Shown here one piece after another: positions 8,703 to 22,281 of a DNA stretch of 64,000 nucleotides. Numbering within the stretch: the stretch's first letter is position 1; every line of letters starts with the position of its first letter. The stretch lies in assembly GCA_903953565.1 (NCBI GenBank), contig CAJBKE010000004.1, positions 62,001 to 126,000 of the forward strand, read 5' to 3'. The stretch is from an uncultured Verrucomicrobiota bacterium. GTDB lineage: Bacteria > Verrucomicrobiota > Verrucomicrobiia > Chthoniobacterales > JACTMZ01. The notes under the pieces are model-generated. The model ran no database searches and was not told the DNA's origin. It saw nothing but the letters and a program-made list of their open reading frames with translations. The position numbers and the translations under genes were made by a program.

Positions 8703-10037
8703 TCAGCGCAACCCGCGCAGCAGGAGCTCCGCATTGGTCTTGGTGCGGTTGAGATTGCGTACCAGTGTTTCCATTGCTTCGACCGCGGGAAGTTCGTTCA
8801 GCTGCTTACGGATCACGATGACCCGCTCGAGTTCGTCGGGATGGTAAAGGTTCTCCTCACGACGCGTTGCGGATTTGGTGACGTGGATGGCCGGGAACAC
8901 CCGCTGGTCGGCGATCGTCCGGTCGAGATGGATCTCCATATTGCCGGTGCCCTTGAATTCCTCGAAAATCAGGTCATCCATGCGACTTTGCGTTTCAACC
9001 AAAGCAGTGGCCACGATCGTGAGGCTGCCTCCTTCCTCGGTATTGCGCGCCGCGCCGAAGAAACGCTTGGGTTGCATGAGCGCTTTGGCGTCAACGCCGC
9101 CCGACATGATGCGTCCCTTGCCGGGCTGCAGGTTGTTGTAGCCGCGGGCCAGACGGGTGATGCTGTCGAGCAGGATGACCACATCCTTGCCGAGTTCGAC
9201 CAGACGCTTGGCGCGCTCGCTGACAAATTCGGCCAGCTGCGTATGCCGCTGGGGTGATTCGTCGAAGGTGGAGCTGTAGATGTCCGCATCGATCGAACGG
9301 CGCAGGTCGGTCACCTCCTCGGGACGCTCATCAACGAGGAGAAGCATAAGCTGGACGTCCGGGGAGGTTGACCTGATGGCTTGTGCGATGTGCTTCATCA
9401 GGATCGTTTTCCCCGTGCGCGGGGGCGCGACAATCAGGGCCCTCTGGCCCTTGCCCAACGGGGCAATGAGGTCGACCGCCCGGGTGCTGAGGGTGGGTTC
9501 CTTGAGCGCCTCGAGCATGATGCGTTCCTGGGGAAAAAGGGGCGTCAGCTTGTCGAATGGAGCAGGGGGCTGCCATTCCGCGACGGGAATTCCCTCGACG
9601 GCGGATATTTCTTGAAGTCCGCAGTAACGGTCACGTTCGGACGGGGCACGCAGTGTTCCAGTGACCTGCAGGCCGGTTTGCAGGCCGAAATCCCGGACTA
9701 GCCCGATCGAAACAAAAAGGTCGTCCGGTCCGTGGGCCATGTTGTAGCAGGACCAACGGAGCATGGCGTGATCGCCGACGTCCTCGACCAGTCCTGTCGC
9801 TGTAATGGTCGCGCCAGCGCAAAGGAAGAAGCGGCAGAGATCGAAGACAAGGTGGCGGCGTGTTGCATCCGGCCGCAGGCGGAGAGAATAACGCTCGATG
9901 AGCGACAACAATGCGGCGTGATGCAGGCTCTGCAAGGCGGAGAGTTCCAGGTGGGCCCCGGCTACCGCGGCGGCATCTTCCGGAAAAGCGCCCAGAGCGT
10001 CTGGTTCTGTTGTTGTCAGCTGCATCGAGCTATTCAT
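8703..10037 (-). CDS. rho: Transcription termination factor Rho, divergent RNA-binding domain
   Basis: 444-residue hexameric RNA/DNA helicase that ends transcription. Rho_N helices occupy about residues 25-75, a cold-shock-like RNA-binding domain about 80-145, and a RecA-type ATPase follows with Walker A APPRTGKT (204-211), [11 protein letters not shown], Walker [14 protein letters not shown], the Q-loop GGVDAKAL and [12 protein letters not shown]. The ATPase core is fully conserved. The RNA-binding domain is not: where other Rhos have DGFGFLR this one has DHAMLRW (residues 89-95). ATG 10037 overlaps the coaE stop by 8 bases; ATG 10025 is an alternative, and an upstream frame to 10103 lacks homology. 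Likely co-transcribed with coaE. Confidence 0.93.
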
Positions 10038-10617
10038 TCCGCGTTGGAAAAAGTGCATCAAGGAGCAGCACGCATTGCCGCTCCAATTCGGCCGGCGACC
10101 CATCGTTCCAGATCACATGATCGGCCAAGGCAACTTTTTGCCCGATCGGCCACTGGCTGGCAAGCATGGCGTCGATCATCTCCCGATCAAGCCCGCGATC
10201 GGCCAGACGTTGCTGTTGAACTTGGGGTGACGCAGCGACAACGATGGTGGTGTCAAAAGCCGTAGCAGCGCCTGTTTCAAAGAGTAGGGGAATATCGGCA
10301 AGCAGGCTGGTGCCATTTGCGCGGCAGTCCTTGGCGAGGCTCTGCCATCTTGACTGGACAACCGGGTGCAGAATGGACTCCAAACGGCGTCTGGCCTCCG
10401 GATTGCGGAAGACGATCTGTCGTAGTGCGGCCCGGTCGATCGGAGCCTCGGGGAGTGAGAACTCCAAGCGGATGGCCGAGATGACCTCATCGTTCGTGGC
10501 GAGTAATTCATGCACGCATGCGTCGGCGTCGAAAGCCGTCAGGGTCGCACGCCCAAGGAGAAGACGGGCGAGGGTTGATTTGCCGGTGGCGATGCCACCC
10601 GTGAGGCCGAGCAACAT
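10030..10617 (-). CDS. coaE: Dephospho-CoA kinase
   Basis: 195-residue P-loop kinase for the last step of coenzyme A synthesis. The N-terminal Walker A is LLGLTGGIATGKST, followed by FDADACVHELL (substrate aspartate), HPVVQSRW, the segment LLADIPLLFETG, and the lid-side helix QQRLADRGLDREMI. Length matches the family (about 200 aa). It sits 54 bases after the secretin genes on the same strand and overlaps rho, so it may be the tail of the pilus-like operon's transcript or the start of a coaE-rho unit. The hairpin at 10641-10656 lies in the gap. Confidence 0.95.
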   Translation of the reverse strand: MLLGLTGGIATGKSTLARLLLGRATLTAFDADACVHELLATNDEVISAIRLEFSLPEAPIDRAALRQIVFRNPEARRRLESILHPVVQSRWQSLAKDCRANGTSLLADIPLLFETGAATAFDTTIVVAASPQVQQQRLADRGLDREMIDAMLASQWPIGQKVALADHVIWNDGSPAELERQCVLLLDALFPTRNE

Positions 10618-10671: not shown

Positions 10672-13302
10672 CTATTTCTGACGGAAGCCCTTGGCGTTGA
10701 TGCTGGGCTTGCGCAGGTCCTCGGGCAGTCCGAGCGGTTCGACGATTTCTTCTTGGTCCGTATCGTCTTCGGGACGCAGGGGTTGTCCTGCCGCATCCAT
10801 CAATCGTGCCGTAACAAAAACAATGAGGTTTTGTTTGATCTTCTGGTCGACCTCGGAACGGAAGAGGGTGCCAGCGTAGGGGATATCGCCAAGAACCGGG
10901 ACCTTGTCGTTCACCTTCTGCACGTCTTCCCTGATCAAACCGCCGAGAGCCACGGTCTGCCCATCCCAGATGCTCACATCCGTGGTGACTTTGCGGACGC
11001 TGAAGATGGGTTGGTTGATGACGTTCTCGGTGAGGACGGTTGGGGTGAAGAACTGATTTGCGCTGAGGATACTCAAAGGGTCGAGAGCGAGACTGGCGGC
11101 GCCCCCGACCAGGTTCCGCTGAGGCGCGAGGATTGGGCTCCCGTAGTTGACGAAGCCATCAAAGTCGACGACCTCGGGGCTCAGTTTGAGATCGATGGTA
11201 TAGCCGTCAGGTCCAACCACGGGTTCGACGACAAGGTTCACGCCGAGTTGGCGGGTGGTAAAATTCTCGGGGAAACTTGGCGTGACCACCGGGTCCTGTT
11301 CTTGAACAACGCCACCGACCGATGTGGATCCGCTACCCGTGTTTTGCGGCACTTGGGGAGGTGCGTAGTTCTCGGGATAGGGAAACTCGCGGCTGATGCT
11401 GATCGTGGCCTTTTCTCCGCTCTTTGTGGTGACCTTCGGGGCCGCCATGAGGTCGACGCCCTTTTTCTGGTTCAAAGCGCGGATGACCATCTGGAACTGC
11501 GGGTTGGTGAACACGCCTGAGATCGAGAAGAAACCGGGAGCTGGACCTGTTCCTCCGGTTACACCTGAATTACGGGCAAGGAGCGCGTTGAGGCTGTTGA
11601 CCGAGACCGCTGCGTCGGGTCCGGTTCCGCTTCCACTGCGGAGACCGCTGGTGATGGAGTCGCCACCAACGACACCACCTGTGCCTGGGTTTACGAAAGG
11701 CCACTGGCCTGCCTGCCCTTGCGGAATAATCGTTCCGCCGCTGCTGGCCAGGCCGGAGTCTCCGATGGAGAAAGGCCCGAGGGCCCAATCGAAGCCGAGT
11801 TCCTTGAGGTTGTTCTGCGAGATCTCGACAAACTTGGCCTCGATCTCGACCTGCGTGGGCTGTGCACCCATGGCTGCGTCGACCAGAGATTCGATCAGAT
11901 CGAGGTTTTCCATCGTGTTGCGCACGACCAAGCGGCTGGTTCCGGCGTTGAAATTCGCGCTCGTGCCCGGGGGGAAATCAATACCCTGCGACTCAAGAAA
12001 TTCCTTGGCGCCCTGCCGCGCACCGAGGCGCGCGCCCCCTGTGCCGACCTGCCGACCTGCCACTGCGTCAGCTTCCGTGTCGCCTCCGGCGACGCCTGTG
12101 ATGAAGCCGGGGGGCACCTTGAATTCGCGTTGCTCGAGCACGTCGGTAGGCTCGGAGAGAGGAACCAAGGACACGGCGAAAGGTTCCACCTTGACCTTCA
12201 AGCCGGCCAGAGTGGCAACGTAACGGAGAGCTTCGTAAAGAGGAACATTACTCAGGTTGAGAGTGATCCGGTTGTCGCCCGAGTAGAGGGGTGCGGCCGG
12301 CGCTTCGCCCTCCACTTCCAGCGCGGCGGAAGGCTGCGGTGCCGAGGCAGGCAACTTGACCACGATGTTGATGCCGCGGCGTTCCGGATCAGTTTCAGAG
12401 GTGTCCAAATCGCGGCTGCGCTGCTGCAGAAAACCGACTGCTTGGCGAACGGTGGCGTCGCGAAAGTCGACGCGCGGAATGATGATGCGGTTGAGGCGTC
12501 CGACCATGAGTTCGGTGCCGCGTCGTTCCTCGTCAAGTGCGGTGGAATCCGTGGTACGCGCCTCCACGAAACGACGCCTCGGACGCTCCCATGCCTTGTC
12601 CACCTGCCAGAGCATACGCGAACGCGTTTCGTTGTAAGCGCTGTCGTAGTAGCGCTGCTTTCCGACTTCGACCTGCTCCATGCCCCGGAAAGCGGCGGCA
12701 TTGTATTTGTCGACACTCAGAACTTGCTCGTAACGCTTTTGGGCGAGGTCGTAACGGCCGGAATCGAAATAGCCATTGGCTTCTTGGAGCAGCTTGTCCA
12801 CTTGCACACGGTCTTCGGCAAACTCCGGGGTAATGGTTTTGTTGAAGTAGTCGGGTTGCTCGAGTCGCGACAAAAAGACGGCAGCCGGCTGGTAGTTTGG
12901 GTTGTATTGCGGTTCAAGAACCTCGCGGGCCACGGCCTCCGCCTTCGCGTATTGTCCTTCGCTCACCAAAAACTCCGCGTAGCGGACGGCAGTGGAGGAG
13001 TAGCGGGAAAGCGCGCGGGCACGCAGAGAGCGCGTGGTCGGGCCGTCAGGCGTGAAGTCCACGGCTTGCTTGTAAGAGAGATAGGCCTGCTCAACGTTTC
13101 CTGCTTTGAGTGCGGCATCACCTCGGCGGAGAGCATCCTCGGCCAAGGCCAGTTCTTGCTGGCGGCGGGCAATTTCCCGGTCCGCATCGTTATCGATAGT
13201 GTAAAGCGGGGATTCTCCGCCGGAACCGGCATGGGCCGGTGAAGTACTCATGGCCGCAACGCCGACCGATACCAATCCAATGGCGAAAAGAAGCTTGCTC
13301 AT
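10672..13302 (-). CDS. Secretin (PilQ/GspD family), paralog B of an Amuc_1098-like pair
   Basis: 876-residue outer-membrane secretin. A signal peptide (about 1-25, ending SPAHA) precedes a TPR-like helical region (about 45-250, with QYNPNYQPAAVFLSRLEQPDYFNKT). An STN/N-domain stretch and the C-terminal secretin domain follow (FVEISQNNLKELGFDW, GFFSISGVFTNPQFQMVIRALNQKKGVDLMAAPKVTTKSG, DGQTVALGGLIREDVQKVNDKVPVLGDIPYAGTLFRS). The TPR plus secretin layout matches Akkermansia Amuc_1098. It overlaps the upstream paralog by ATGA and is the last operon gene before coaE. Compared with its twin it is longer, with a Gly/Ser-rich insert near residues 520-580 and an extra acidic-basic tail. Confidence 0.93.
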   Translation of the reverse strand: MSKLLFAIGLVSVGVAAMSTSPAHAGSGGESPLYTIDNDADREIARRQQELALAEDALRRGDAALKAGNVEQAYLSYKQAVDFTPDGPTTRSLRARALSRYSSTAVRYAEFLVSEGQYAKAEAVAREVLEPQYNPNYQPAAVFLSRLEQPDYFNKTITPEFAEDRVQVDKLLQEANGYFDSGRYDLAQKRYEQVLSVDKYNAAAFRGMEQVEVGKQRYYDSAYNETRSRMLWQVDKAWERPRRRFVEARTTDSTALDEERRGTELMVGRLNRIIIPRVDFRDATVRQAVGFLQQRSRDLDTSETDPERRGINIVVKLPASAPQPSAALEVEGEAPAAPLYSGDNRITLNLSNVPLYEALRYVATLAGLKVKVEPFAVSLVPLSEPTDVLEQREFKVPPGFITGVAGGDTEADAVAGRQVGTGGARLGARQGAKEFLESQGIDFPPGTSANFNAGTSRLVVRNTMENLDLIESLVDAAMGAQPTQVEIEAKFVEISQNNLKELGFDWALGPFSIGDSGLASSGGTIIPQGQAGQWPFVNPGTGGVVGGDSITSGLRSGSGTGPDAAVSVNSLNALLARNSGVTGGTGPAPGFFSISGVFTNPQFQMVIRALNQKKGVDLMAAPKVTTKSGEKATISISREFPYPENYAPPQVPQNTGSGSTSVGGVVQEQDPVVTPSFPENFTTRQLGVNLVVEPVVGPDGYTIDLKLSPEVVDFDGFVNYGSPILAPQRNLVGGAASLALDPLSILSANQFFTPTVLTENVINQPIFSVRKVTTDVSIWDGQTVALGGLIREDVQKVNDKVPVLGDIPYAGTLFRSEVDQKIKQNLIVFVTARLMDAAGQPLRPEDDTDQEEIVEPLGLPEDLRKPSINAKGFRQK

Positions 13303-15755
13303 TTTCCGGGCAGCGGCGGTTCAAGGGCCGCGGAGGCGGTATCAAGGGGCAGGTCGTCGACCAGTTCCACATCTCCCTCATCCATGACTTCCGCGACCAG
13401 CGGTTGGCCGGCGGGATCCATCAGGGTGGCGGTGACAAAGATAACCAGATTGCGTTTGATGTGCTGGTCTGACTGCGAACGGAAAAGCGCGCCGGCCACG
13501 GGCAGGTCGCCGAGCAAAGGTGTCTTATCATTGACCTTTTGCACGTCTTCCCGCATCAGGCCGCCGAGAACGACCGTCTGTCCGTCATAAATGTGCACGG
13601 AGGTGTCCACCTTGCGCTCGCTGAAGACCGGGTAGTTAATGACATTTTCCGTCACCACAATGCCGCGGTTGAGAATGGGCGAACCGTAGTTGATGAAACC
13701 CTCAAACTCCGTAACCTCGGGCACCAAGCGAAGGTCGATCGTGTAGTTGTCCGACCCCACTGTGGGAGACACCTCTAGTCGGACGCCGACGGGCTTCATT
13801 TTGAAGCTTTCCGGGGTGGCCGGGGTGATGGGTTGGGTGCCACTGCCGGTGGTTTGCGGGATTTGCGGTGGCGCGTAAACATCCGGATAGCGGAATTCTC
13901 TAACCACTTCCACCGTGGCGGTGGAACCGCTTTTTGTCGTCACCTTCGGCGCGGAGAGGACGTCGATGCCTTTCTTTTGATTGAGCGCACGAAGGACCAC
14001 CTGGAACTGCGGGTTGGTAAAGACGCCGGCCAAAGCGAGGACGCCGGCAGCGGGCCCGAGCGGGCTGCCGAAGAGAAGCCCGTCGAGGGCGTTGCCGGTG
14101 ACCGCAGTCTGGCCGCTGCGATTGCCGGCTGTGACGGGATTAACGCCGACCGGGACATCGGTGCCGGGATAAACAAAGGGATAGTTCGCTGTGCCTGCCG
14201 GGCCTACCGCGGTTGAGTTGAATTGATTGCCGGAGGTGCCGCCGCTGCCGAAGACGCCCGTCGTGCCAAAACCGAACTGTCCGAGGAGCCAATCAAACCC
14301 GAGTTCTTTCAGGTTGTTCTGGGAAATTTCGACGAACTTGGACTCGATCTCGACTTGGGGCGTGATTTCACCGGAGGAGCTTTCGACCAGCGCGTCCACC
14401 AGATCGAGATTCTCCTGGGTATTGCGGACAATCAGACGGCTGCTGCTCGCGATGAAGTTGGCGCTGGCGCCCGTGGGAAATTGGACTCCCTGTGACTCGA
14501 GATAAATTTTCGCACCGCTCTGGGCAGCAACGCCGGGTGTTTCGCTGCCGCCTCCGGACGGCGTGCTTGTGATGAATCCGGGCGGAACGCGGTATTCCTT
14601 GGTGATGAGTGTGTCCGTCGGTTCGCTCAAGGGAACGATGAGGACAGCGTAAGATTCGACCTTGAATTTGAGGTTGGCCAAGTTGGTGATGTAGGTCAGA
14701 GCTTCGCGCAGCGGCAGGTTGGCGAGATCAAGGGTCACCGTCTGCGAGGCAGCCGCTTGGTCGAGCTTCAAGACAATATTCACGCCACGCTCACCGGTCT
14801 CGACGGCTTCGGTATCAAGGGCCTCGGAGCGTTGGCGGAGGAACTCGATGGCTTCGCGCACTGTGGCGTCGGTGAAATTGATGCGAGGGATAACAATCTC
14901 GTCGAGCTTGCGGCTGATCGACTGCGTGCCTCGCGAGGTGAGGACGGGCTGCTCGATGACGGCGGCTGGCCCGAGGTCGACGCGGCGAACCGGTGTTTCC
15001 CATGCCTTGTCGACTTGCGTGATCATGGCGGCGCGGGTGTCGTTGTAGGCCGCATCGGCCACGCGCATTTTGCCCATGTTGACTTGCTCCATGCCACGGC
15101 GTGCGGCCACGTTATAGCGGTCGAGGCGCAACGCAGCCTCGTATTTGGCCGTGGCCTCGTCGAAGCGTCCGGAATCGTAAAGTCCTTGGCCTTCGTTCAG
15201 CAGGGTCTTCACTTCCTCCACCTTGGCCACGAATCCGGGCGTTACGGTCTTGTTGAAATAGTCCGGAGACTCGAGGCGGGCGAGGAGGCGTTGGGCGGGC
15301 TTGTAGTTCGGATTGTATTGCGGCTGAAGGATGACACTGACGGTTTCTTCGGCATCTTCCCAACGTCCTTCCTCGATGCGGGCCTCGGCCAAGCCCATCA
15401 CGGCTTTGGAAAAACCGTCTATCGCGCTCGCTCTGAGTTCGCGAACATTGGGCGCATCCGGCAGGGCATCGACGGCTGCTTTGTATTGGGTGTAAGCCGT
15501 CTCGTAGTCGCGCTCCATGAGGGCAACTGAGCCGCGTTGCATGGCCTGGGGAGCATAGTCTTCGGCCAACTGCATGCGCTTGGCGATTTCGAGTTCGGCT
15601 TGGGCCTCGACCCCGCCGAAAGAGGCTTGGCCGCTGCCGGGGCCAGCCCATAGCGGGCTAGCCAGGCAGCATAGCAGCGATGCCGCGAGAGCAGAGCAGT
15701 AGGATCTCTGGTCGCGGAGCGTGCTAGGGCTCGGTTGGGGGCTGCGGCGTGGCAT
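13299..15755 (-). CDS. Secretin (PilQ/GspD family), paralog A of an Amuc_1098-like pair
   Basis: 818-residue secretin with the same design as its downstream twin: signal peptide (about 1-37, cleavage near PLWAG), TPR-like repeats (note QYNPNYKPAQRLLARLESPDYFNKT), N-domains, and a secretin core with FVEISQNNLKELGFDW, VFTNPQFQVVLRALNQKKGIDVLSAPKVTTKSG and DGQTVVLGGLMREDVQKVNDK. Many segments are identical or nearly so between the two, indicating tandem duplication. ATG 15755 is inside the end of the upstream gene (32-base overlap) and is the only start that keeps the signal peptide. Secretins form the outer-membrane exit ring of type IV pili and type II secretion; here it would pair with the PilM-N and PilO-like proteins upstream. 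Confidence 0.93.
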   Translation of the reverse strand: MPRRSPQPSPSTLRDQRSYCSALAASLLCCLASPLWAGPGSGQASFGGVEAQAELEIAKRMQLAEDYAPQAMQRGSVALMERDYETAYTQYKAAVDALPDAPNVRELRASAIDGFSKAVMGLAEARIEEGRWEDAEETVSVILQPQYNPNYKPAQRLLARLESPDYFNKTVTPGFVAKVEEVKTLLNEGQGLYDSGRFDEATAKYEAALRLDRYNVAARRGMEQVNMGKMRVADAAYNDTRAAMITQVDKAWETPVRRVDLGPAAVIEQPVLTSRGTQSISRKLDEIVIPRINFTDATVREAIEFLRQRSEALDTEAVETGERGVNIVLKLDQAAASQTVTLDLANLPLREALTYITNLANLKFKVESYAVLIVPLSEPTDTLITKEYRVPPGFITSTPSGGGSETPGVAAQSGAKIYLESQGVQFPTGASANFIASSSRLIVRNTQENLDLVDALVESSSGEITPQVEIESKFVEISQNNLKELGFDWLLGQFGFGTTGVFGSGGTSGNQFNSTAVGPAGTANYPFVYPGTDVPVGVNPVTAGNRSGQTAVTGNALDGLLFGSPLGPAAGVLALAGVFTNPQFQVVLRALNQKKGIDVLSAPKVTTKSGSTATVEVVREFRYPDVYAPPQIPQTTGSGTQPITPATPESFKMKPVGVRLEVSPTVGSDNYTIDLRLVPEVTEFEGFINYGSPILNRGIVVTENVINYPVFSERKVDTSVHIYDGQTVVLGGLMREDVQKVNDKTPLLGDLPVAGALFRSQSDQHIKRNLVIFVTATLMDPAGQPLVAEVMDEGDVELVDDLPLDTASAALEPPLPGK

Positions 15756-16761
15756 TGATCTCGAGGCGCGGAATACTTAACCGTTCGCCAGAGGCGAGAT
15801 CCTGTATGGTGGCAGCTTCTTCAGATACGTCAACCAGCTTGTAACCCTGTCCAGGATCCAGTTCAAACTGCTGACCGGTGCGCAGGGCGACCTCTTTTCC
15901 TCCGCTTCGCGTATCCACCAAGGTGGCCAAGGAATACGGCGAGTCTTTGACCTCGCCCTGGGTTAGCTCGATTTTCAGGTTGTCCGCGGTATTCAACAGC
16001 GTGATGACCGGGACCTCCTCCTCGGAGTTGGTCTTGGGATTCAGGCGGTTGATCATGCGGGCCTCGACGAATTGGAGGGGGGTGGCCGTTTCGGTTTTGC
16101 GGCCATCGGGGCCGGTCTCGGACAGCGTGATCATCTCGCCCTTCTCGTAGAAGCGTGATTCGCCGGTGAGAGCACTTGGATCCTCTGCGCTGACCGTGTT
16201 GATTTGCACGCTTTTCAGATCGCCCTGCGGGAGAGATTCAAACTTGGTCCGGAGCTTGTCGATCTTCGTCGCCGACAAACGAAGTTTGGTCCACACCGGC
16301 GGCTTGGATGCATCGCTGACCGGACTGGCTCCCGCGCGGAATTCCTCGATGTTGGTAAACCCGTCGGTATCGGGATCTTTCCCTGCCAACTCCGGGTCGG
16401 TGTAATCCAAGCCATGCTTGAGGATCCACGCGTTATCGATGCCCGGATAGAGTTGCGCGTCGCTCTCGAAAATATCCACCAACTGTCCGTCGCGCAGGAG
16501 GTAGACACGGCTGACGAAGAGCGACCGGTCATACTCTTCCCACAGGCTCTTTGCAGGCGCGGCGAGTTTGCCTGCTTCATTTTGCAGGCGTCCCAGCACT
16601 TCGTTTGCGGCAAATTCCGCGCCCCGATCCCTGGGGGCAGGAGGTTGGTATTCAGATTGCAACGCGGAGAAGCTGCTCACTGCGTAGAAGGCAGCCGCGA
16701 CCAAAAGCAGCCCCGAGAGCAACAGGAGCAATCGCCCGTAGTTTGCTTTGACGTAATCCAT
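15724..16761 (-). CDS. Amuc_1099-like membrane-anchored protein
   Basis: 345-residue protein with one N-terminal membrane helix (about 9-29) and a large periplasmic region. I recognise no catalytic family. It contains a calcium-site-like stretch DPDTDGFTNIEEF (about 130-142), as found in thrombospondin type 3-like repeats. Two similar periplasmic modules seem to follow (TKLRLSATKIDKLRTKF; FVEARMINRLNPKTNSEEEVPVITLL), ending in a Pro-rich tail. Position and topology match Amuc_1099 of Akkermansia, between the Amuc_1100-like protein and the secretin. A PilP-like role bridging inner membrane and secretin is plausible but inferred from position only. Confidence 0.72.
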   Translation of the reverse strand: MDYVKANYGRLLLLLSGLLLVAAAFYAVSSFSALQSEYQPPAPRDRGAEFAANEVLGRLQNEAGKLAAPAKSLWEEYDRSLFVSRVYLLRDGQLVDIFESDAQLYPGIDNAWILKHGLDYTDPELAGKDPDTDGFTNIEEFRAGASPVSDASKPPVWTKLRLSATKIDKLRTKFESLPQGDLKSVQINTVSAEDPSALTGESRFYEKGEMITLSETGPDGRKTETATPLQFVEARMINRLNPKTNSEEEVPVITLLNTADNLKIELTQGEVKDSPYSLATLVDTRSGGKEVALRTGQQFELDPGQGYKLVDVSEEAATIQDLASGERLSIPRLEINATPQPPTEP

Positions 16762-16773
16762 GGCGCGTTGCTG

Positions 16774-17661
16774 CTATTCTTTGTCTGCGGCCGGGGTGAC
16801 CGAGACCGAGGCCAGACGAAGTTTTACGTTGAGGGTTTCTTTGCCGAACGCCACCGGAATCTGGCCGGATCCTTCGGTCGTGGCTGCCGTTTCCGCGGTC
16901 TCTTGGGTGGCACCTGCGGATTCCTTGGCCGGTGGCGAGGGGCTTGAGTTGGTCACGCTCACCAGACGAACCAAGACAACGGGCTGGGCGGTGATGATGG
17001 CCGAGAGCGCACCGCGAAAGGCCGACTGCTCGGCGACGAATTCCACGTCGAAAGGGGCCAACTCGACAGCCGCGAGTTGCGCTTTGGTTGGTGTATCCTG
17101 CTCCCCGGCGGTTTCGGGTCCTTCGGCGCGCAGTGGCGCGCGCTCGATGCCGACAAGTTGACGAATCCCGGATTTGAGGAGCAACCCGGTTACATTGGCG
17201 ATTGTCTCAAGTTGCTGCCCGAGAACCGGCGCTGCCGCTTCGGGAGGCGGTTGGGCCTTGTAAGCCGAGAAACCAAGATAGAAATCCTCTGGCAGACTAA
17301 CGCCGGCACTGGTGGCCGCCTTCTCCGCAGTCGCCGCCGCAGCGCTCAGCTTGTCTTGGAAATCACGGGGCGCAAGAGTCGGGTCGAGAGGTATGCTTTG
17401 ACGAGCGACCTCGGCAGCGAGGTCACCCAGAATTTTGGCGGCCGATTCGGCCTCTTCCTCGGCTGCTTTGAGATTCGCCTCGTTCGGGAAAGGCTTGGCC
17501 GACTGGAGACTGGCCAGCGAACTGTTGTTCGAGGCAAAGGCATCCGTCTGCTCGATGAAGGCTGTGTGTTGCGTGTAGGCGAAGTAAAGGCCAGCGAGCG
17601 TGAGGATGGCCGTGGAGGCAACCAGGGCGCCGACGAAAGGATTGTCTTTGAACCAGTTCAT
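16774..17661 (-). CDS. Amuc_1100-like (PilO-like) pilus-associated membrane protein
   Basis: 295-residue protein: membrane helix at about 9-29, a coiled coil (about 35-110), then two alpha-beta modules (about 110-185 and 200-285) split by a low-complexity linker rich in Pro, Ala, Thr and Glu. The domain order, length and several local patterns agree with Akkermansia Amuc_1100 as I remember it: FQDKL in the coiled coil, a LGFSAYKAQ-like strand, LGQQLETIANVTGLLLKSGI, and a final KETLNVKLRL strand. This is also the layout of PilO/GspM assembly proteins. ATG 17661 touches the PilM-N stop (TGATG); a GTG one codon upstream is an alternative. Amuc_1100 is known as a TLR2-signalling protein, a property that need not apply here. 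Confidence 0.78.
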   Translation of the reverse strand: MNWFKDNPFVGALVASTAILTLAGLYFAYTQHTAFIEQTDAFASNNSSLASLQSAKPFPNEANLKAAEEEAESAAKILGDLAAEVARQSIPLDPTLAPRDFQDKLSAAAATAEKAATSAGVSLPEDFYLGFSAYKAQPPPEAAAPVLGQQLETIANVTGLLLKSGIRQLVGIERAPLRAEGPETAGEQDTPTKAQLAAVELAPFDVEFVAEQSAFRGALSAIITAQPVVLVRLVSVTNSSPSPPAKESAGATQETAETAATTEGSGQIPVAFGKETLNVKLRLASVSVTPAADKE

Positions 17662-19406
17662 CACAGGGGGATGGGGGTTTTCAGGGGCACGATGAGCCGG
17701 TATTCATAGGCCCACTCGTCGCCGCTCTGCGCGGCGCGGAGATCGACGACGGCCTCTTTGTTCTCATCCGTGATGCTGAAGAGCGGCGACTCGGAGAGCT
17801 TCTTCACGAATTCATCGACCACGGCGGGGCCGGCCTCGTTCTCCAAGTAAAGTCCTTCGACCCTGAGTGCGGTGACCGCTGGTTTTTGTTCTTTGCCGCT
17901 TTCGCCGCTGGCGTTGTCTTGTTCGTTCCCGCCCGGTTTGTCCGTGCCGCCTTCGGCAAAACCCGCAACGTCGGGATGAGGAGAGAGTTTGGTGATCCAG
18001 AGAAATTTTTCGGGCTGGCTTTGGTTGAGCGCGTTGATGATCTCCGCCCAACCTGTGCGGAGGATAGGCAAGGCCACTAGGTCCGCCCCATCCTCCAGCA
18101 ATTGGTCACGCTGCTTGGTGAATCCGGCCATGCGATCAGCAGTCTGCTGCAGGGGGGCAATAGACGATTGGACCTGCTCGTTGAGTCGCGCAAGCGTGCT
18201 TGTCGCGCTCTGGTAGTAGAGGCCCAGCAACGCGACCGAGGCCACCAACCCGGCTGCCGCTGCTACGAGGAAGGGCCGGTGCTTGGTTGCCTCCTCCGAT
18301 CGAAGAAGCGAGGCGGCTTGGAGGCTGACGCCGAGGGGGCACTCGGTGCCGAGTTCGCGCAACGCCACGCCCACGCACTCTCCGAGACGATGGGCCACAC
18401 CGGCCACGGAAGATTGATCGACGCCCGCTCCGACCGAAATGCGGCGAAGTGGATTGAAGAACTCGATGGGCAAGGAAAGTTTCTCGTTGAAGAACTCGAG
18501 GGTGTAAGGCATCGACGCACCGCCGCCGGCGAGAAAGACCCGCATCGGCGCGGCACCTTTCTGGGTCGTCCGGTAGAACGTGACGGAACGCGTAATCTCG
18601 TTGTGGATACGCGTCATGACCGTGCGGGCAATTTTCCCCATTTCGGCGACGTCCTCGTTCTTGGCGCCGGAATAGTTGCCGGGAGGAGGGATCAGGCCCT
18701 CGACGCGCTTGAATTCCTCGACGTCGCCGAAGCTGCGCGGCTCGAACTTTTTGTGCAGGGCGGCCGTGATGGAATTGCCGCCGACGGGCAGGGTGCGGAT
18801 GAAGACGTCCTGTCCTTCGACAAAAATCAGGTTGGTGGCTCGCGCGCCGATGTCGATGAGCAGCGAACAACCTTGGACGTCGGGATAGTTGTAGCGGAAT
18901 GCGTTGTAGAGCGCCGTCGGGGAGGTCTCGACGATCTGGGGCGTCAACTTCGATGCAGCGAGGACCTCGACGGTGGACTCGAGTGCGTCGGTTTTGGTGG
19001 CGACGAGAAGGGCATTGATCTTGTCATCACCCTTGTCCGGCAGCACCTGATAGGTCCACGCCACTTCCTCGATGGGATAGGGGACATTTTGCTGTGCTTC
19101 GAAAAAAAGAACCTGATCGATCTTGTCGGGCTCGACCTTGGGAATCTGGACAAAACGGGTGAAGACGCCCTGCGAGGGGATGGCGCATCCGCAGGCACCA
19201 CCTTTCCAAGCCAACTGCGTTTTCATTTCTCCGAGCACCACCTTGAGTTGTCCGAACCGCGAACCGTCCGCCGCGGGGTCGGGGATCAGGTCCGATTGGG
19301 CAAAGCCCGTGAGCGTGATCCCACCGCCGACCGAAGGCTGGAAGACCGCCATGGTGACGGTCTGCATGCCGAGGTTGATGGCGGCGGCGCGGTCGGGCTT
19401 CTTCAT
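17661..19406 (-). CDS. PilM-PilN fusion protein (Amuc_1101-like)
   Basis: 581-residue protein. Residues 1-365 form an actin-like PilM domain with LIDIGARATN (about 183-192), PVGGNSIT and the FLAGGGASMP nucleotide-site motif (291-300), plus QVLFFEAQQNVPYP, typical of PilM/GspL. A single membrane helix follows at about 379-398. The remainder is a PilN-like region with a coiled coil and the segment ILRTGWAEIINALNQSQPEKFLWITKL. Separate PilM and PilN genes in classical pilus operons are thus one chain here. ATG 19406 was chosen because homology begins there; the frame stays open to 19502. It would form the inner-membrane platform with the Amuc_1100-like protein. Confidence 0.88.
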   Translation of the reverse strand: MKKPDRAAAINLGMQTVTMAVFQPSVGGGITLTGFAQSDLIPDPAADGSRFGQLKVVLGEMKTQLAWKGGACGCAIPSQGVFTRFVQIPKVEPDKIDQVLFFEAQQNVPYPIEEVAWTYQVLPDKGDDKINALLVATKTDALESTVEVLAASKLTPQIVETSPTALYNAFRYNYPDVQGCSLLIDIGARATNLIFVEGQDVFIRTLPVGGNSITAALHKKFEPRSFGDVEEFKRVEGLIPPPGNYSGAKNEDVAEMGKIARTVMTRIHNEITRSVTFYRTTQKGAAPMRVFLAGGGASMPYTLEFFNEKLSLPIEFFNPLRRISVGAGVDQSSVAGVAHRLGECVGVALRELGTECPLGVSLQAASLLRSEEATKHRPFLVAAAAGLVASVALLGLYYQSATSTLARLNEQVQSSIAPLQQTADRMAGFTKQRDQLLEDGADLVALPILRTGWAEIINALNQSQPEKFLWITKLSPHPDVAGFAEGGTDKPGGNEQDNASGESGKEQKPAVTALRVEGLYLENEAGPAVVDEFVKKLSESPLFSITDENKEAVVDLRAAQSGDEWAYEYRLIVPLKTPIPL

Positions 19407-19443
19407 CAAACGAGCGGGGAGGGATTCTCTACACCTCGCGGCA

Positions 19444-20064
19444 TCACATGCCGGCCGGGCGGGTCTTGATCGCCTCGTAATAGTCCCAAACCAAAGGAGC
19501 AAACGGTGTTTCGTTTTTGTTCAGAACATAGCCGCTGACCTGCTGGAGTGGGCTCCACCATTGGCCGCGCCCTTTCCAGCTGCCCTCGGCAACCAACTGT
19601 CCCTGCTTCGTGATGGTGATGCCGACATCCTTGATGGCAGAGGAGGCACTGGTCGGCAGTTTGCCTTCGAAAAAACGCTCCAAAGTCCGCGGGCTGATAT
19701 ACATGACGGAATTCAGCGCCTTCGCATTGGGGATAGCGACGTGAGTCACCGAACCCGTGAGCAGGGTCCCGTCCTTGTTCTCGCGGTTCGGGTTGTTCAG
19801 AAGGATGAAGTAATTGATGGTGACCTCATCGAGGAACTTCGCGTTCTTGTCCTTGGGTTGCCAATCGAAAGTGACCTCGACTTCGAGGAAGTCCTTGTTC
19901 TTGGTGATCCGCTTGTTTTTGGGGCCGAAGTTCACATTGTATTCCGGCGTGGTCACCAGATCGGGCGTGATCTTGACGATGGCAAATTCACCGCCGGTGG
20001 TTTGCGCGATGGCGGCCGCGCCAAAGGAGAGCGTGCAGAGGGCGAGTAGGAGGGATCTTTTCAT
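19444..20064 (-). CDS. Amuc_1102-like secreted protein
   Basis: 206-residue secreted protein with a clear signal peptide (MKRSLLLALCTLSFGAAAIAQ). The mature part is beta-rich (VEVTFDWQPKDKNAKFLDEVTINYFILLNN; DVGITITKQGQLVAEGSWKG), consistent with the immunoglobulin-like fold reported for Amuc_1102. It is the first gene of the pilus-like operon, 38 bases ahead of the PilM-N start. The spacer upstream (20065-20125) should hold the operon promoter. Function is unknown. Confidence 0.75.
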   Translation of the reverse strand: MKRSLLLALCTLSFGAAAIAQTTGGEFAIVKITPDLVTTPEYNVNFGPKNKRITKNKDFLEVEVTFDWQPKDKNAKFLDEVTINYFILLNNPNRENKDGTLLTGSVTHVAIPNAKALNSVMYISPRTLERFFEGKLPTSASSAIKDVGITITKQGQLVAEGSWKGRGQWWSPLQQVSGYVLNKNETPFAPLVWDYYEAIKTRPAGM

Positions 20065-20097: not shown

Positions 20098-20131
20098 CGT
20101 TGAAGCGGAATCGAGAAATTCCGCTTCAACG
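20098..20131. other. Perfect 14-base-pair hairpin between sugar transferase and pilus operon
   Basis: CGTTGAAGCGGAAT (20098-20111), six-base loop, ATTCCGCTTCAACG (20118-20131), with no mismatch. It overlaps the last six bases of the minus-strand sugar transferase gene, so it would form at the 3' end of that mRNA. There is no T-tract, so it may be a processing or stability stem, or may shield the downstream pilus operon from read-through. Confidence 0.6.
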
Positions 20132-21591: not shown

Positions 21592-22281
21592 GTGAGTTCT
21601 AAAAAAAACACATCCCGCGCGGCCACCTTGGTCGTGGCTACCGCTCATACGGAACAAGGCTTGCGTCAGGCTCGTCGGCTGGGATCCGGGGCGGTCGGTT
21701 TTGCCGAGCTGCGCTTGGACGCCTTTGCCAAGAGCCCCGGCCTCGTGAAGCGGACGCTTCCGGGTATTACGACGCCCATTTTGATCACGGCCCGCCATCC
21801 TGCGGAAGGGGGCCTCGGGCGGTTGGGCATCGCTTTCCGTCGCGATCTGCTGGCGGAATTTTTGTTGCATGCTGATGCCGTCGACGTCGAGTTGCGCTCC
21901 GTCACTTCAATGCACGGTGTGTTGCAAGAGGCGAACCGTCGCGGTGTTCTCCGGGTGGTGTCATTCCATGACTTCCGTGGCACACCAAGCCTGCCACGTC
22001 TCCGCGAGATTGTGCGGCGGGGAGTCAGGGCCGGCGCCGACATCGTGAAAGTAGCGGCGCATCTCCGCACTCCGAATGATTTGGCCGCCCTGCTCATCTT
22101 GCAGGGCACGACGAAAGTTCCGCTGGCCACCATGGGCATGGGTCCCTTGGGCAAAGTGTCCCGACTGGTGCTGGCGGCCGCAGGTTCGCGTTTGAATTAC
22201 GGGTATCTCGACAAGCCGCAAGTGGGCGGCCAGTGGCCTGCGCTCGAATTGGTCCGTCGCCTCGAGGAGGCCCTGCCATGA
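21592..22281 (+). CDS. aroD: 3-dehydroquinate dehydratase, type I
   Basis: 229-residue class I dehydroquinase of the shikimate pathway. Visible residues are the active-site acidic strand VDVELRS, the catalytic histidine in SFHDF and the Schiff-base lysine in ADIVKVA. The protein is slightly shorter than E. coli AroD (252 aa) at the N-terminus. The start is a GTG at 21592. It overlaps trpD by ATGA, coupling a shikimate step to tryptophan synthesis. Confidence 0.93.
   Translation: MSSKKNTSRAATLVVATAHTEQGLRQARRLGSGAVGFAELRLDAFAKSPGLVKRTLPGITTPILITARHPAEGGLGRLGIAFRRDLLAEFLLHADAVDVELRSVTSMHGVLQEANRRGVLRVVSFHDFRGTPSLPRLREIVRRGVRAGADIVKVAAHLRTPNDLAALLILQGTTKVPLATMGMGPLGKVSRLVLAAAGSRLNYGYLDKPQVGGQWPALELVRRLEEALP

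Follow-up and report, generated by a model that had tools for sequence, protein, structure and literature searches.

The window analysed here is a stretch of 64,000 nucleotides from contig C4 of a Chthoniobacterales MAG (2.86 Mb, 70 contigs, 95.7% complete). It carries a six-gene operon at positions 10672-20064 of the minus strand, in which genes of the Amuc_1102, Amuc_1101, Amuc_1100 and Amuc_1099 families are followed by two secretin genes of the Amuc_1098 family, which we call A and B. The features of the locus, in window coordinates and with the profiles that support them, are as follows:

21592-22281, plus strand: aroD (type I 3-dehydroquinase; PF01487), which also flanks the locus in Akkermansiaceae
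19444-20064, minus strand: Amuc_1102-family secreted protein, operon gene 1 (NF042424, 115.8 bits; cut-off 55)
17661-19406, minus strand: Amuc_1101-family PilM with a fused PilN-like C-terminal part (NF045709, 548.5 bits; PF11104)
16774-17664, minus strand: Amuc_1100-family protein, PilO-like by position (NF038287, 180.7 bits; cut-off 180)
15724-16761, minus strand: Amuc_1099-family protein, PilP-like by position only (NF042425, 129.5 bits; cut-off 50)
13299-15755, minus strand: secretin A, the first copy, with signal peptide, TPR part, N-domains, secretin domain and a derived C-terminal tail (NF042912, 829 bits; PF00263, 121 bits)
13299-13302, minus strand: 4-nt ATGA overlap of the A stop and the B start, read from the sequence and the same in many relatives
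10672-13302, minus strand: secretin B, the second copy, with signal peptide, TPR part, N-domains, secretin domain and an ancestral-type C-terminal tail (NF042912, 864 bits; PF00263, 110 bits)
10030-10617, minus strand: coaE, downstream flank in conserved synteny (TIGR00152)
8703-10103, minus strand: rho, downstream flank in conserved synteny (NF006886)

Between the front of the operon and aroD lies a sugar transferase gene, whose end is overlapped, just before the operon, by a perfect 13-bp inverted repeat at 20099-20130 (GTTGAAGCGGAAT, loop TTCTCG, without a T-run), possibly a terminator or regulatory hairpin. The open frame of the PilM gene begins at a TTG at 19502, and the most likely start is the ATG at 19406. 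Its product scores below the strict NF045709 cut-off of 650 bits, covers positions 1-606 of the 608 in that profile, and is best called a divergent relative of Amuc_1101; with the pilM profile TIGR01175 it scores 136.9, above that profile's own cut-off of 133.

Comparison of the family profiles with solved structures led from the Amuc_1102 family to the Amuc_1102 structure 7dsz (E 6e-59) and from the Amuc_1100 family to the Amuc_1100 structure 6lad (E 2e-74), and found no solved relative for the Amuc_1099 family. In the latter, a DPDTDGFTN-like motif is conserved, which weakly matches EF-hand calcium-binding proteins. The Amuc_1101 profile matched PilM (3jc8_Ma, 3e-64) over positions 1-351 and then PilN (3jc8_Na, 1.4e-8) over positions 356-487, which identifies Amuc_1101 as a PilM-PilN fusion, something that the family name does not convey. 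The same comparison found no profile link from Amuc_1100 or Amuc_1099 to PilO or PilP, and we infer from position only that these two proteins correspond to PilO and PilP, respectively.

Both secretins exceed the curated NF042912 cut-off of 750 bits and sit behind Amuc_1099-1102, as expected of the Amuc_1098 family. An initial sequence-only reading had credited both with a full secretin core and a signal peptide; the profile search bears out the former, finding in each copy TPR repeats and a complete PF00263 domain, and the signal peptides agree with our own reading of the sequence. A monomer model of secretin B built with an alignment reached a pLDDT of 75, and its best PDB match by E-value was Vibrio cholerae PilQ (6w6m), at low global TM-scores; 8odn was also among the matches. 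A model built without an alignment (pLDDT 42) was discarded. PilM, PilN and a PilQ-type secretin are thus encoded together, as in the type IVa pilus machine, and the succession of PilM-PilN fusion, Amuc_1100, Amuc_1099 and PilQ-type secretin gives the gene order of pilMNOPQ. The best explanation of the operon is that it encodes the alignment and outer-membrane part (PilM-PilN, PilO-like, PilP-like and PilQ) of a Verrucomicrobiota type IV pilus-like machine, with two secretins and only one PilM/N/O/P set.

The rest of such a machine is found on other contigs. Profiles for T2SSE, T2SSF and N-methyl prepilins gave no match on contig C4, in keeping with the earlier remark that no pilus ATPase, PilC or major pilin is encoded nearby, and the genome search proposed along with it recovered the PilB, PilC and PilT families together with 23 N-methyl prepilin matches, all of the latter outside C4. 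Two PilB-like ATPases lie in tandem on contig C70, PilC on C59 and two PilT-family ATPases on C26; both PilT-family proteins score above the curated cut-off, and PilB and PilC are assigned by homology at scores below the strict equivalog cut-offs. The genome also holds a T2SS-like module on C37 and another T4P-like module on C68. With the PilB/GspE-type ATPase pair (C70:3883-7273), the secretin is not the only pilus gene that this genome has in duplicate.

Secretins A and B show 50% identity across 857 aligned columns and have the block FVEISQNNLKELGFDW in common, which confirms the tandem duplication read from the sequence. To determine how widespread the pair is, we examined related loci and a set of genomes. 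Named relatives put the genome in Chthoniobacterales. About 40 of the 80 loci of named relatives are tandem, the single-copy ones including that of Chthoniobacter flavus Ellin428. Spartobacteria bacterium LR76 (QAYZ01), whose record bears no MAG label, has the tandem pair. Within the genome set searched, tandem pairs occur in families f1, f2, f7, f8, f10 and f13, and a single secretin occupies the same operon in families f3, f4, f6, f9, f11 and f12. The full operon is present in many families of Chthoniobacterales; the MUL2 locus was called less conserved in this order in a 2026 study (PMC13174399). Of the genomes searched from the six tandem families, 26 have both copies, always in the order A then B, and none has a complete locus with just one secretin. 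Those without the pair have contig-edge fragments, partial or no strong matches, or reduced genomes of 0.9 Mb. Two such reduced, single-contig genomes of family f8 (G017 and G027) lack both secretins, which their larger f8 relatives keep, and both secretins are retained in the small 1.7-2.3 Mb genomes of family f13.

The phylogenetic evidence points to one event behind all of these pairs. A tree of 106 secretins gathers all A copies in one clade (100) and all B copies in another (100), and a mixture-model tree of 47 sequences recovers A (99), B (100) and A plus B (96) with the single copies outside. This is also the outcome of the secretin comparison suggested earlier as a check: A and B form sister clades rather than distant ones, and both are strongly similar to the Amuc proteins. 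The tree of the single-copy gene Amuc_1101 agrees, placing the six tandem families in one clade with support 99. Taken together, the trees indicate that the secretin gene was duplicated once, on the stem of the six-family clade in Chthoniobacterales, and that both copies were kept. Later loss of one copy in the single-copy families was considered and rejected, since the secretin and Amuc_1101 trees both put these families outside the tandem clade. We also rejected a fused double secretin, apparent in open frames of 1618-1772 aa over both copies, because the DNA holds two genes in one frame with a stop codon between them, and stop readthrough as a conserved device, because A and B stand in different frames in many families. 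The clade that carries the pair is a branch of Akkermansia relatives from soils and lakes. Our literature search, from which subscription journals were mostly absent, found no mention of a tandem Amuc_1098-family secretin and no paper on secretin heteromers or paired PilQ. What appears new here is that the duplication is clade-wide in Chthoniobacterales rather than a local oddity, though an earlier description may exist.

Additional secretins of this family have arisen elsewhere as well. In family f19 of the same class (G131), the same operon closes with a tandem of two Amuc_1098-family secretins, as here; the f19 copies group together, apart from A and B, so that they stem from a separate duplication. 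The sequence-only reading had described the six-gene order as that of the Akkermansia locus except for the second secretin. The Amuc_1098-1102 families and their order stand, but the exception is incompletely put, because a second Amuc_1098-family secretin is encoded away from the operon in Akkermansiaceae: at L121:7147-9669 in an Akkermansia-type genome (G166) and at loci L119, L123, L125 and L127. Its neighbour at L119 and L121 is a related gene whose product, of about 520-550 aa, seems to cross the membrane once. The unlinked second secretins of Akkermansiaceae and a neighbouring family fall elsewhere in the trees and represent separate events. Equating the Akkermansia orphan secretin with Amuc_1666 proved wrong, as that tag denotes a beta-galactosidase. 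In family f18, the operon and unlinked secretins (L128/L129 in G119, L132/L133 in G269) are mutually closest within each genome, in two genera, which suggests either that the duplication is recent or that gene conversion has acted across loci lying far apart.

How have the two copies been maintained? In nearly all tandem loci, B starts between -8 and +32 nt from the end of A, often with the ATGA overlap, and wider spacing is confined to f8 loci and a single locus whose frame is broken. This tight arrangement suggests translational coupling, and A and B are presumably made in near-equal amounts. Values of dN/dS between 0.04 and 0.20 for both copies show purifying selection. We found no sign of gene conversion between A and B, as the trees of the TPR part and of the secretin domain keep them apart; the N-domain tree is weaker, with only two fast-evolving f13 loci mixing A and B. 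The differences between the copies are found at the C-terminus and in the core. The C-terminus of single-copy secretins from Chthoniobacterales is an acidic run closed by a lysine. The terminal lysine is present in 34 of 37 single copies and 38 of 42 B copies and in 5 of 36 A copies, and an EE in the C-terminal tail in 35 of 37, 38 of 42 and 12 of 36, respectively. Two-thirds of the A copies (24/36) have a new tail motif that is absent from all B and single copies. Conversely, at sites conserved in the single copies, B departs at seven that A keeps and A departs at one, and each copy keeps 148 invariant positions. Residues that set the copies apart include A556/S570, L573/F592 and P781/A837, numbered as in A/B. 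By this comparison, divergence is reciprocal: A has mostly lost the ancestral acidic, lysine-ending tail, and B has changed seven core sites. Each copy has thus given up an ancestral feature, as mutual dependence would predict.

What, then, do the two secretins build? Rings of two paralogues fixed by reciprocal loss are established for some other ring complexes. On the reading that we favour, and hold with about even confidence, A and B assemble into one mixed ring. The PilQ gene was duplicated in tandem once in one Chthoniobacterales clade and both copies were kept. A and B, both exported secretins with their own TPR part, would be produced at almost the same level, their genes overlapping or lying close together, and would co-assemble on the single PilM/N/O/P set. 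PilB, PilC and PilT from other contigs would power the pilus, and the machine presumably has a pilus or particle-attachment function. A mixed ring is the simplest reading of one PilM/N/O/P set, joint production, the lack of half-loss and the reciprocal loss of features. The more far-reaching proposal, a natural outer-membrane ring obligately composed of two paralogous secretins that became locked together when, after a single duplication, each lost ancestral features that the other kept, is one that we advance with somewhat less assurance. Mutual dependence is suggested by evolutionary evidence, namely a single origin, a fixed order, the absence of half-loss and reciprocal divergence. A pairwise alternation of A and B is sterically conceivable, given that 6ve2, among the structure matches to the secretin B model, is a 14-subunit PilQ ring with a seven-fold partner. 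To our knowledge, the solved secretin rings, such as those matching the secretin B model, contain one kind of secretin subunit. Against the mixed ring, single-copy relatives manage with one secretin, and the 148 invariant positions kept by each copy mean that A or B may be able to make a ring without the other.

That both copies are retained in a fixed order is also consistent with two separate rings, each built from one secretin only, that use PilM/N, Amuc_1100 and Amuc_1099 in common and act under different conditions or for different filaments; one might, for instance, extrude a pilus and the other serve uptake or secretion. A and B both keep all core features, the genome has two tandem PilB genes, several T4P or T2SS modules and its 23 prepilins, and a second, unlinked family member is kept in Akkermansiaceae, where the related adjoining gene in the two loci compared makes it a precedent for a separate ring. 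We regard two rings as less likely than a mixed ring in view of the single set of inner partners, the tight spacing with fixed order, the fact that one copy never occurs alone, and the keeping of both copies in the small f13 genomes. Division of labour could also take the form of one copy making the pore and the other acting as an accessory (assembly factor, cap or periplasmic ring), to which the changes of B at otherwise invariant sites and of A in its tail would lend themselves; the complete secretin domain and signature region in both, with no truncation, make this quite improbable. Least probable of all, with only a faint chance, is that the second copy provides dosage or backup without any division of labour. 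PilQ (Amuc_1098) is located in the outer membrane of Akkermansia and is the most abundant protein there (PMC4960237), so that a higher dosage could pay, but A and B are only half identical, form separate clades with diagnostic sites and tails, and have stayed under purifying selection over family-level time with no gene conversion. A further question is whether the machine captures glycans or particles, MUL2-like, instead of working as a retractile pilus of the classical type; both ring models would allow this, and its likelihood concerns the purpose of the machine and lies outside the sum of those given to the ring models. The same four genes make up the Akkermansia MUL2 locus, which has been linked to attachment and the use of mucin (PMC13174399, PMC12418764), and yet the two PilT-family proteins above the curated cut-off, PilC and the PilB-like ATPases are as for a retractile pilus, so that we consider such a capture machine possible and keep it as a tentative option. 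As for the mixed ring, these clade-wide, always-paired and reciprocally diverged secretins offer a testable natural case of a homomeric membrane ring becoming a two-component one.

Compared with the Amuc_1098-1102 locus of Akkermansia muciniphila (MUL2 plus PilQ), the operon has the same five families, gene order and coaE, rho and aroD flanks; these flanks, a dehydroquinate dehydratase among them, have been reported beside the Akkermansiaceae MUL2 locus (PMC13174399). A and B are each 38% identical to the operon secretin of an Akkermansia-type genome, whose 907 residues equal the length reported for Amuc_1098 (PMC4960237). The Akkermansia operon has one secretin, whereas here there are two, and the other Akkermansia member of the family lies apart from its operon and arose separately. 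Seen in this way, the MUL2/pilus locus of Akkermansia is the form that pilMNOPQ takes in Verrucomicrobiota, its PilM fused to PilN and its secretin to a TPR part, and the Chthoniobacterales loci provide an environmental comparison group for it. With pilMNOPQ of type IVa pili, the operon shares the succession of PilM, PilN and a PilQ-type secretin; it differs in that PilM and PilN are fused, Amuc_1100 and Amuc_1099 stand in the PilO and PilP slots as candidates by position, the secretin has a TPR part, and the secretin is doubled. RcpA-TadD and other secretins have a separate TPR-containing pilotin. Both those systems and A/B link a secretin to a TPR protein, but in A and B the TPR part, which probably acts as an integral pilotin, belongs to the secretin polypeptide itself, an architecture previously noted in Amuc_1098 (PMC4960237).
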